In this document: positions 4,979 to 45,684 of the stretch, one piece after another
Layout of the letters: each line of letters starts with the position of its first letter
How positions within the stretch are numbered: position 1 is the stretch's first letter
Assembly (NCBI GenBank): GCA_001600175.1
Contig: BCJC01000002.1
Coordinates: 3,073,111-3,137,110 of the forward strand
Reading direction: 5' to 3'
Source of the DNA: Erythrobasidium yunnanense
Taxonomy: Eukaryota; Basidiomycota; Cystobasidiomycetes; Erythrobasidiales; Erythrobasidiaceae
Length of the DNA stretch: 64,000 bases
Notes under the pieces: model-generated
What the model was told of the DNA's origin: nothing
Database searches by the model: none
Seen by the model: the letters and a program-made list of their open reading frames with translations, nothing else
Program-made: the position numbers and the translations under genes

Positions 4979-6733
4979 TGTCCTGGAGATGTGAGTAGAA
5001 AAGGTATACAGAGTGTTATACAGATATACTAATGCATTATGCCCCCAGCAAACGCCCAGCGGACAGGCGCAAACGACGGCAGTCTGGCCAATCCTCGACG
5101 ATGGGGAGGAGGAGGAAGCAGCGGCGGTGGTGGTCAGTCTGGAGGGTACAATGACAACAACTATGGGCCACCTCCGTCATCTGGCGGCGGCGGATATGGC
5201 CAGCAGTCTTCGTACGGCCAGCAGTCGCATGGCGGCTATGGCGGGCAATCCTACCAACCTCCCCCTCCTCCGCAAGACAGCAGTGCTCTTGTAGGCCCTC
5301 CAGGCGAGAGGAAGCGTAAATCCAGATGGGGAGACGAGAAGGACAAGATCCAGGTAGCTGGATTGCCCACTGCAATCTCGGGCAACGTCCAAGGAAGAGA
5401 TCTCGAAAACTACGCTATCCACGTCAGACTGGAGGAGATTGCAAGGAAACTACGAAGTGGTGATGTTATACCTCCTGAGAGGGAAAGGTCCCCGTCCCCT
5501 CCCCCAACCTACGACCATCACGGTCGAAGAACCAATACAAGAGATATAAGATACAAGAGGAAGCTCGAAGATGAGCGCAACAAGCTTGTCGAGAAGGCGA
5601 TGAAGAGTGATCCGTCGTACAAACCTCCAACAGAGTATCTCATGCACAAGCGTCTCTCGGGCAGACCCTCAGAAAAGATCTACATTCCCGTAAAGGAGTT
5701 CCCAGAGATCAAATGGATCGGTCTGATCCTTGGACCGAGAGGCAATTCACTCAAGCAGATGGAGAAGGAGACGGGTGCAAAGATCGTCATTCGAGGTAAA
5801 GGGTCTACAAAGGAAGGAAAAGGCCAATTTGGAAACAGGTCGGCAGACGAGGAGGATGAGCTGCACTGCAACATTACAGCAGATTCGCACGACAAGGTAG
5901 AAGCTTGTGCAAAGCTCATCAACAAGGTCATCGCGACGGTAAGCGTCTATTTCCCTCTGTCTTCGATCCTTTCCCGCTAAATTGACCACTTATGTAATTC
6001 GCAGGCCGCTTCCACACCTGATGAGCAGAACGACCACAAGCGCAACCAGCTTCGCGAGCTTGCCATGCTCAACGGAACCCTCCGAGACGACGAGAATCAG
6101 CCCTGTCAAAACTGCGGTAAACTGGGCCATCGCAAGTATGACTGTCCGGAGCAGCGCAACTTCACCGCGAGCATCGTATGCCGAAACTGTGGAAACATGG
6201 GCCACATGGCACGGGACTGTATTGCTCATCGCAATAAAGGAGGAGCTGGAGGACCGCCTGCTACGACGCCGGCTTTCGATTCAGAGTACTCGGCACTCAT
6301 GGCTGAGTTGGGAGAAGGCCCTGCTTCAGCTTCTGGCGGTGGTCTACTGGGTGGACCGCAAGGTGGAAACGCAGACCCTTATGCAGGCGCCTTCGGATCA
6401 GACATGAATGGTCATGGAGGTACTCAAGCAGCTCCTGCAAAAGCGCTTCCTCCATGGCGTATCCCAACAAACTGGCATCCACCACAACCAGCAAATGGTC
6501 GAGATGGCGGAGGGTTCGGACGAGGAGGCGGTGGTCCTTCAGGAATGAACTACAACCCGTATGGATCGTACGGACAGAGCTCGTACGCTGCTGCATATGG
6601 AGATCAGGCTGCTGCAGCTTCTGGAAGAGGTGGATACGATTACTCGGCTAGCTCATACTATGGTGGTGCAGCTGCGGGAGGTGCTGCTCAGTCCGCTTAT
6701 GGTACTGCTGGATACGGAGCTGCGTATGCCTAA
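4979..6733 (+). CDS. MSL5: branchpoint-bridging protein (SF1/Msl5)
   Basis: Splicing factor that binds the intron branch site in the first spliceosomal complex and bridges to U2AF. Exons are 4979-4991, 5049-5938 and 6005-6733, giving 543 aa. The start codon sits in a 13-nt first exon (MSWR), the usual SF1 start. A nearer ATG at 5039 lies inside intron 1. Visible parts: Gly/Gln/Tyr-rich segment (residues ~20-75); a U2AF-ligand motif RKRKSRW (~92); an SPSP motif (~152); a STAR/KH domain (~213-300) with the GPRG loop; two CCHC zinc knuckles ([14 protein letters not shown] and [14 protein letters not shown]); then a Gly/Tyr/Ala-rich tail. The domain order and motifs are seen directly; the function is from the family. 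Confidence 0.95.
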
Positions 6734-42925: not shown

Positions 42926-45684
42926 ATGGCACCAGGGAGGGCACCCGGCAAGGCGAGGAGCACTGGCTCCTCAGTCAACCAGACAAAGCAGCATGTCAAA
43001 GGAACAAACAATTTCTACAGAACAGATGAGAAGAAGGTCAAGATGATAAAGATGCTGGCCAATGGGGGCAAAGCTATAAGAGATAAAGATGGGAAGATCA
43101 TCAAAGAAGCAGAGTATCAGAGTAAAGAAGTCACGCCGGGCAGAGTACAGCCAGACAGGCGGTGGTTTGGTGGGTCAGCAGCCTCGAAAATGCGAATTCT
43201 AGCTGAAGAAGTATTGTTATTCTGTAGGAAATACTCGTGTCATATCGCAGAATGCCCTCACCCACTTCAGAGACTCGCTAGCGGCAAGGCAGTCGGATCC
43301 ATATTCTGTGATCCTCAAGCAGAACAAGCTACCCATGAGCTTGCTACAGGAGTCTACAAAGGTGTGCTGTACCACCTACGGTATATCAAGCTAGTCGCTG
43401 AGTTCGTCCTGCAGCTCTCTCGGCCAAATTTGACGACTGCAGAACCTTTCTCAGACACTTTTGGGCCGAAAGCACAGCGCAAACGACCTCGTATCGATGT
43501 TGGGTCATTCGAAGACCTAGCAACGAATGGTCTGATCAAGCTTACGCCGAAACCTACATATCAACTAGCATCCGAGACGGTCGGGGAAGACGGTGCTGAG
43601 GACGACTCAGCCGCGATCGAAGAAGCAGCACTACATGCCAAAGATCTCGGTGCAGACGAATACAACGAAGCTCAGAAGCTAGAGATCAAAGATGCAGAGC
43701 TGTCGAATGCGCCACTTGATTATATCCTCGCAGCTGGCACAAGCAAACGTATCTGGGCGGAACTGTACAAGGTCATCGATTCAAGTGATATTCTGCTGCA
43801 TGTCCTTGATGCGAGAGATCCTCTGGGAACAAGGTGTCATTCAGTGGAAAACTACCTTGCAAAGGAGAAGAAATCAAAGAAAGTCATCTATATCCTCAAT
43901 AAAGTCGATCTCATCCCAGGCTGGGCAGCTGTAAGTCGACAACACTCTACTTCTGTGCCTTCCTTTCCTTCCCCCTCTCCCCATTTACATCGCCTTCTAT
44001 GCGAAACTCTCCATTTCGAGAAGGTATCGCACACCATGGACTGTCAGGTTTCGCGCAGTATCGCCGCGAAAGGTCGTCCTCTTTTCTCAAGAGTGACTTC
44101 TCGATTAGCAGAAAGATACACACCTATCTTCGCTCAATCCTTCGGGGTCTGTGTGTAAGAGCGTGTTCAGTTGCGTAACGACCGTTACGTCCATGGAAGA
44201 TTACTATTTTCCCTTCTTTTCCATTCGTGGATGGGAGGGTGAGCTTTAAAAGAGTTGAAGGCCGGACTGTGGACTTTGTCAAAGGAGTCTGCACCTTTCT
44301 CCGTGCTGGTCTTCTTAGTTAGGAAGCGAACATCCTCCATACTTCGTTCCCCTTTTCCTTTTCATTACACTTCATATTACAACTCTTCATCGATACCTAC
44401 AGCGAGCAGTATACTGACACTTCGTATCTGTTTGTGAAGGCTCGCTGGGTATCCCATCTCTCGAAGACCCACCCCACCATCGCCTTCCACGCCTCCATCA
44501 ACAACTCCTTCGGTAAAGGTTCCTTGATCCAACTGCTACGCCAATTCTCCAACCTCATGAGCGACAAGAAGCAGATCTCCGTTGGGTTTATCGGCTACCC
44601 AAACGTCGGGAAGAGCAGCATCATCAACACCATCAAGAACAAGAAAGTGTGTAATGTTGCTCCTATTCCCGGAGAGACGAAGGTCTGGCAGTATATTGCG
44701 CTCATGCGACGGATTTACCTCATCGACTGTCCCGGTATCGTACCGCCCTCAGCGAGAGACACAGAAACGCAGAAGGTCTTGAAGGGCGTAGTGAGAGTAG
44801 AACATTTGTCTGCGCCTGGCGACTCTATCCCAACACTGCTTGCGCGAGTAAGACCGGAGTACATGCAGCGGACCTACGGCATAGAAAGCTGGACGGACTC
44901 TGAAGACTTCCTTACGCAACTAGCTGTGAAGCGCGGTAAGCTGGGTAAAGGAGGAGAAGCGAACCTCGACACGGTAGCAAAGATGGTACTCAACGACTGG
45001 ATCCGAGGCAAGATCCCCTATTTCGTTCGCCCACCTGAAGCGGAGGTAGCACCTTCTGCTCAAGCATCTACGTCCACACAGACTATTGAAGAACAAGAAG
45101 TCGGAGCTGCGAAAGCGAAGAATGACGAGAAGGCTTTCGGTACAGGAAGAGTCGCAGGTGTCGTTCAGCCACTGCATCAGATCGTCAGCAGGACACGCTT
45201 TGTGGGAGATGATAAAGACAATGCGGATGATGGAGAAGAATGGACTGGATTTGGTAGTGCAGACCCTGCTAGCGAGGCTGCCGAAGTCGTGGAGAACGAC
45301 CTGGATGCTGAAGGCGGGGCAGAGGCGTCTATCATTGAAGGAGAAGCAGACGTCACTGCTGAAGATGATGAGGATGAAGCTTCTTCTGATGCTGGCGAGC
45401 TCGCTTGGGAAGACCTCGTTGGCGAATCTCTGCCAAAGCCGGCTCCCTCTTCGCCTCGCAAGCGACCTGCGCCTGAGGAGGAGCCTGCAGATGACGATAA
45501 CGATGATGATAATGAGCAAGAGGAGGAAGAAGCTGTCGCTGTCGATCCGCGCAGAAGCCTAAAGAAGGAGAAGCGCATGACCACAAACAAGAAGAAGGCT
45601 GAAAACTACTACACGCATGCCAATGTTAAGGGCAAGAATAAGAACCGTAAAATACCTCGAATTGAAGGTAGAAAAAAGCGGTGA
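42926..45684 (+). CDS. NOG2: ribosome-assembly GTPase Nog2/Nug2
   Basis: Circularly permuted GTPase on nuclear pre-60S particles that acts as a checkpoint before export. Exons 42926-43169, 43228-43361, 43415-43930 and 44440-45684 give 712 aa. Introns 1 and 2 contain no stop in the 42926 frame and together are 111 nt, so an unspliced reading looks open; only splicing restores the family sequence ([37 protein letters not shown]). Motif order is G4 (NKVD, ~288), G1 (GYPNVGKSS, ~350-359) and G3 (DCPG, ~394), as expected for the YlqF/Nog family. The tail is acidic, then Lys-rich. Intron 3 is 509 nt and carries the snoRNA described separately. Confidence 0.95.
44034..44335 (+). ncRNA. snR191: H/ACA snoRNA, snR191-like, in NOG2 intron 3
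   Basis: Guide RNA predicted to direct pseudouridylation of two uridines in helix 69 of large-subunit rRNA. The 5' hairpin has a basal stem CCATGGAC (44034-44041) with GTCCATGG (44189-44196), left guide GTCA (44043-44046), right guide GTTAC (44184-44188) and H box AGATTA (44198-44203), 14 nt after the right guide begins. The 3' hairpin has a basal stem GCTTT (44243-44247) with GGAAGC (44322-44327), left guide AGAGT (44251-44255), upper stem GAAGGCCGG (44257-44265) with CTGGTCTTC (44306-44314), right guide TAGTTA (44316-44321) and ACA at 44330-44332, again 14 nt. The guides pair with GUAAC/UGAC and UAACUA/ACUCU in the conserved sequence around yeast U2258 and U2260. Budding-yeast snR191 has these targets and the same host intron. 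Ends are inferred (3' end three nt after ACA). Confidence 0.85.

Follow-up and report, generated by a model that had tools for sequence, protein, structure and literature searches.

A probable snR191-type H/ACA snoRNA in the long NOG2 intron of Erythrobasidium yunnanense, a putative guide for two helix-69 pseudouridylations

In H/ACA ribonucleoproteins (RNPs) of intronic origin, the intron is spliced, the small nucleolar RNA (snoRNA) is trimmed and bound, and the pocket presents a uridine to Cbf5. Human U19/SNORA74 guides sites in helix 69 of the large ribosomal RNA (rRNA) that are equivalent to those of snR191 in Saccharomyces cerevisiae. In this work, we analyzed a stretch of 64,000 nucleotides (nt) from the basidiomycete Erythrobasidium yunnanense (contig BCJC01000002.1; hereafter the window), in which an earlier examination of the letters alone (hereafter the sequence-only reading) had proposed a complete snR191-like H/ACA snoRNA within an intron of NOG2. 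Our analysis suggests, with a probability of about 0.91, that positions 44034-44335 correspond to an H/ACA pseudouridylation guide of the snR191 type that would be excised from the NOG2 transcript as part of the third intron and would direct two modifications of helix 69. In agreement with the sequence-only reading, snR191 of S. cerevisiae guides positions 2258 and 2260 of the 25S rRNA (PMC8307265) and sits in the NOG2 intron (PMC8476143).

The association between NOG2 and this type of snoRNA has already been described over a broad range of fungi. According to Lim et al. 2021 (PMC8476143), eight intron-poor fungi share the position of the NOG2 intron, and this intron encodes an H/ACA snoRNA. 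These eight species include Ustilago, Pseudozyma, Malassezia and Meira (a part of the Meira prediction being of low confidence), the intron position is kept in 72% of the fungi studied, and a table lists eight Pucciniomycotina. On the yeast side, the works of Hooks et al. (PMC4202332, PMC4937481) and a study of Candida (PMC5033589) report losses of the intronic copy or a location outside NOG2. The locus described here resembles those of Lim et al. by its host gene, the kept intron position and the H/ACA nature of the snoRNA, whereas neither E. yunnanense nor its class is named in the parts of that paper that were consulted (PMC8476143). Furthermore, our literature search, whose scope did not extend to subscription papers and supplements, retrieved no title dealing with a NOG2-intron snoRNA in the Cystobasidiomycetes lineage. 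The element is very probably a genuine snoRNA, its type and its location both being known already, from a lineage for which no report was found, while the general claim is already in print.

The identity of the host gene is confirmed by an NGP1NT domain in the first half of its product and an MMR_HSR1 GTPase domain in the second half (Pfam). The closest named NOG2 proteins are those of a Cyphobasidiales metagenome-assembled genome (MAG; 64% identity) and of Cystobasidium minutum (59%), both values having been obtained with a query in which the two short introns were still translated through; these relatives point to a Cystobasidiomycetes-like basidiomycete as the host. Once these short introns (58 and 53 nt) are placed by alignment with relatives, the spliced frame is open. 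The third intron is 8.8 and 9.6 times as long as the two others, in agreement with the "nearly ten times" of the sequence-only reading, which had also named the host gene correctly.

This intron displays the layout expected for an H/ACA snoRNA, i.e., a hairpin, the H box AGATTA, a hairpin and an ACA near the 3′ end, with an extra middle hairpin besides (Table 1). The coordinates, both boxes and both 14-nt spacings are as claimed by the sequence-only reading, and the perfect 8-base-pair (bp) basal stem and the 9-bp upper stem lie at the sites that it gave. Its description of two hairpins holds in that each of them precedes its box, but a third hairpin is present at 44211-44239. A DNA search of the host assembly used in our genome-wide searches (20.9 Mb in 10 contigs) found the snoRNA stretch once, no near-identical second copy being seen.

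The guides were compared with the helix-69 stretch of yeast, taken in place of the 25S rRNA of the host, using a dual-guide score that sums the base pairs of both pockets to the 2258 and 2260 sites, basal stems not being counted. The intron reaches 20 bp (4 + 5 bp at the 2258 site and 5 + 6 bp at the 2260 site). This score is attained by none of 2000 dinucleotide-shuffled introns (maximum of 19, with eight at 18) and by none of 760 segments of equal length (509 nt) taken from the genome of the host (maximum of 16). Among the 30 uridines of the helix-69 stretch, the hairpin preceding the H box is best at the equivalent of 2258 (9 bp, the next reaching 6) and the hairpin preceding the ACA box at the equivalent of 2260 (11 bp, the next reaching 7). 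The match of the pockets to the flanks of these two uridines, as put forward by the sequence-only reading, is therefore borne out. With letter-shuffled targets, no uridine out of 4324 reaches 11 bp with the 3′ pocket, whereas 0.6% of them reach 9 bp with the 5′ pocket; most of the specificity is therefore carried by the 3′ pocket.

The second line of evidence comes from the Rfam snR191 family (RF01263) and from an ascomycete NOG2 intron. A scan of prokaryote genomes with a NOG2 alignment found four relatives in 114 stretches, three in records titled as archaea and one on a fungal contig, NYXK01000235.1, belonging to a MAG titled Deltaproteobacteria; no NOG2 relative was found in 44 stretches of viral contigs. 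The NOG2 protein of NYXK01000235.1 is listed as 100% identical to three jgi proteins and to that of Cadophora malorum (Ascomycota, Leotiomycetes). The presence of an intron-containing fungal NOG2 on this 107-kb contig (MAG: Deltaproteobacteria bacterium isolate CPC1) points to an apparent contamination of a species-representative MAG. The comparison of intron positions thus covers one Leotiomycetes-like ascomycete, hereafter called Cadophora-like. The Cadophora-like intron, of 329 nt, lies at the same codon boundary and in the same phase (0) as the intron of the window (GWAA/ARWV compared to GVA/AAWV). RF01263 matches it at 5805-6047 (243 nt) with an expectation value (E) of 3.6e-7 and 43 bits, three below the cut-off of 46 bits; at E ≤ 10, this model also gives chance matches in 7 out of 14 control genomes, none of them above the cut-off.

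Since MAFFT did not produce any sensible alignment of the 3′ parts of the Cadophora-like intron and RF01263, the parts were compared by hand from the cmscan alignment and no covariance model was built. The printed RF01263 consensus holds GTCA, GTTAC, AGATTA, GAGT, TAGTA and ACA. The window repeats these elements in the same order and with the same 14-nt spacings (the ACA box 14 nt after the start of the right guide), the right 3′ guide reading TAGTTA instead of TAGTA. The locus therefore shares with snR191/RF01263 the NOG2 intron as host, the GTCA/GTTAC and GAGT/TAGT guides and the AGATTA H box; it differs from snR191 by a 3′ guide of 5 + 6 bp instead of 4 + 4 (hand count) and by a length of about 302 nt compared to 274 nt (PMC12389098). 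GTCA and GTTAC are also found in the Cadophora-like intron, which resembles that of the window by its position, phase, guides and the order and spacing of its elements, but has AGATTG as its H box, TAGTA as its right 3′ guide and two mismatches in the basal stem. This stem directly follows GUUAC in the consensus, in the Cadophora-like intron and in the window. It consists of CCAAAACU/AGUUUUGG in the consensus (the outer five pairs being marked by Rfam and the inner three being our own extension), CCAUCGUU/AACUUUGG in the Cadophora-like intron (6/8 pairs) and CCAUGGAC/GUCCAUGG in the window (8/8). From the consensus to the window, five of the eight pairs are changed on both sides and all eight are still complementary. 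In addition, GAGTTGAAGGCC, at the 3′ left guide (AGAGT, 44251-44255), is common letter for letter to the window and the Cadophora-like intron. In local alignments, with a scoring scheme that gives high scores to unrelated sequences as well, the Cadophora-like snoRNA scores better against the window intron than against all 1010 controls (760 segments drawn from 20 stretches elsewhere and 250 from the window itself, including pieces of the intron) and better than 1997 out of 2000 shuffles, the three others equalling or exceeding it.

Several observations weigh against the assignment of 44034-44335 to a snoRNA that guides both sites. The Rfam snR191 search suggested by the sequence-only reading was negative for the window at gathering as well as at permissive thresholds. 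At gathering thresholds, the only snoRNA match in the 64-kb window was of the snR61 C/D type, located elsewhere and not in the NOG2 intron; RF01263 had no match in the window at E ≤ 10, permissive Rfam searches gave no snoRNA match (nor any to U19/SNORA74) in the intron, and RF01263 had no match over the whole host genome (28 of the 396 first-look candidates being scored). The 5′ hairpin is 163 nt long, compared to about 70-80 nt in RF01263 and in the Cadophora-like intron, and the middle domain is smaller, with one hairpin instead of the two of RF01263. The 3′ basal stem has 5 bp only, and the 5′ pocket taken alone is not strong in view of the frequency given above. Patterns of helix 69 and of the peptidyl-transferase region of the 25S rRNA had no match in the host assembly; the target letters are therefore those of yeast. 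A descriptor of the shared geometry favors the assignment, its only match in 579,570 nt being this snoRNA, but it was written after seeing the window and the RF01263 alignment and was thus not blind. It misses the Cadophora-like intron because of the AGATTG H box, and the same intron scores 0 on the dual-guide test, so that such tests are not general detectors; its two basal mismatches out of eight pairs also count here.

The predicted folding of 44030-44340, another check suggested by the sequence-only reading, is favorable for one pocket only. The 3′ guide bases are unpaired with probabilities of 0.55-0.98 and the 3′ loop is open. The open 5′ pocket, in contrast, is not part of the minimum-energy fold: in isolation, the 5′ guide bases have unpaired probabilities of 0.00-0.02, except for one base of GTCA (0.99), because GTTAC almost always pairs in the predicted ensemble with GTAAC located just upstream (44175-44179). 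Forcing the guides and the H box open gives -53.0 instead of -56.3 kcal/mol, i.e., a cost of 3.3. The z-score of the whole fold is -2.79, two of 100 shuffles being as stable, which provides moderate support only.

RF01263 would miss the snoRNA of the window because of a 5′ hairpin about twice the length of that in the model and a middle domain with one hairpin instead of two. Since the model is not matched, 44034-44335 is classified here with the H/ACA snoRNAs of snR191 type and not as a member of RF01263, the seed of which was presumably built from ascomycete yeasts. The closed 5′ pocket and the difference in specificity between the two pockets would fit a snoRNA whose sole functional guide is the 3′ hairpin, the 5′ pocket having drifted and being locked shut, so that another RNA or an enzyme would modify one of the two sites. 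This explanation is unlikely, since GTCA, GTTAC, the position of the stem and the H box all agree with the RF01263 consensus and since the stem is still paired despite the changes on both of its strands; furthermore, a fold prediction that includes neither the core proteins nor the target carries little weight. An inverted repeat (GCGTAAC GACC GTTACGT, 44173-44190) places the letters of the rRNA target, GTAAC, beside the 5′ guide that it is predicted to mask. The snoRNA might therefore be a switchable guide, masked by an internal target mimic in its enlarged 5′ hairpin, that may open only upon RNP assembly or contact with the pre-ribosome; we regard this as a slim possibility. Such masking would be lineage-specific, since the GTAAC beside the guide is found neither in the printed RF01263 consensus nor in the Cadophora-like intron.

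Two further explanations concern the intron as a whole. It could be kept mainly for itself, either because the excised intron stays stable under stress or because it regulates NOG2 expression, which need not exclude a guide function. In yeast, the intron of NOG2 is stable and accumulates (PMC10667330) and is also reported as a maintained intron (PMC4937481), but its removal in the synthetic chromosome XIV harmed growth while leaving NOG2 mRNA and protein unchanged (PMC10667330). Moreover, the identifiable letters common to the window, RF01263 and the Cadophora-like intron fall in guides, boxes and stems. We consider it very improbable that the intron itself is the main reason for its retention. 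Finally, the intron could be merely long or structured and its snoRNA features could result from chance or be the remains of a dead copy, as the lack of any Rfam snoRNA match in it and the z-score might suggest. The joint chance tests, the homologous position and motif order in the Cadophora-like intron and the changes on both sides of the stem all oppose this view, and the uniqueness of the stretch in the genome, with no near-identical replacement copy seen, argues against a dead copy; we consider it the least credible of all.

The preferred explanation thus remains a snR191-type guide acting on both helix-69 sites. The third NOG2 intron would be spliced out, the snoRNA would be trimmed from the spliced intron and would associate with the H/ACA core proteins, and each pocket would present one helix-69 uridine to Cbf5, leading to isomerisation at the equivalents of 25S positions 2258 and 2260. 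Expression, processing, RNP assembly and modification are all predicted here from sequence features.

The snoRNA of the window and that of the Cadophora-like intron support a single snoRNA-host pairing that predates the split between Ascomycota and Basidiomycota. This agrees with the proposal of the sequence-only reading that the pairing may be ancient in fungi and with what Lim et al. 2021 (PMC8476143) had already published. Since this conclusion is in essence in print, the gain of the present work lies in a better annotation and in a seed for a better Rfam model, and not in a new principle: it adds a divergent Cystobasidiomycetes snoRNA that escapes the present snR191 model of Rfam. The sequence-only reading had also suggested that the pairing could couple the supply of the snoRNA to Nog2 expression. 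A coordination of this kind was also proposed by Lim et al. 2021 (PMC8476143), but it is unproven: removal of the yeast intron had no effect on NOG2 mRNA or protein (PMC10667330), and snR191 of Candida parapsilosis is made outside NOG2 (PMC5033589).

Table 1. Features of the NOG2 gene and of the snoRNA in its third intron (positions in the window).
Feature	Position	Strand	Details and support
NOG2 host gene	42926-45684	+	712 amino acids; Pfam domains, alignment with relatives
NOG2 exons	42926-43169, 43228-43361, 43415-43930, 44440-45684	+	
NOG2 third intron	43931-44439	+	509 nt, phase 0, GTAAGT...AAG
Branch-point-like CTGAC	44414-44418	+	A 22 nt before last intron base; by eye, putative
H/ACA snoRNA, snR191 type	44034-44335 (approximate ends, ~302 nt)	+	Boxes, guides, spacing, core common with RF01263 and Cadophora-like intron
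5′ hairpin basal stem, left strand CCATGGAC	44034-44041	+	Pairs perfectly with 44189-44196
5′ hairpin basal stem, right strand GTCCATGG	44189-44196	+	8 bp, no mismatch
5′ pocket left guide GTCA	44043-44046	+	4 bp, 3′ side of yeast 25S 2258-equivalent site
5′ pocket right guide GTTAC	44184-44188	+	5 bp to 2258-equivalent site
H box AGATTA	44198-44203	+	14 nt after first G of GTTAC
Middle hairpin	44211-44239	+	Follows H box, precedes 3′ guide hairpin; 44204-44242 at -13.6 kcal/mol
3′ guide hairpin	44243-44327	+	Basal stem 44243-44247/44323-44327 (5 bp), predicted fold
3′ hairpin upper stem	44257-44265/44306-44314	+	9 bp
3′ pocket left guide AGAGT	44251-44255	+	5 bp to yeast 25S 2260-equivalent site
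3′ pocket right guide TAGTTA	44316-44321	+	6 bp to 2260-equivalent site
ACA box	44330-44332	+	14 nt after first T of TAGTTA; 3 nt before proposed 3′ end

The permissive Rfam searches also returned weak matches located in coding sequence and, separately, one match to the model of a human long non-coding RNA (E of 9.2). The host assembly carries an isolated 5.8S-like stretch of 125 nt on the minus strand of contig C1 (4391638-4391762; 61 bits, model positions 40-154). The 14 kb around this sole 5.8S match contain no Rfam match to 18S or 25S rRNA, the main ribosomal DNA not being found in the assembly. Elsewhere in the window, on the plus strand at 5039-6733, open frames with KH-like and zinc-knuckle-like features resemble, by eye, a gene for the branch-point-binding protein (SF1/MSL5).
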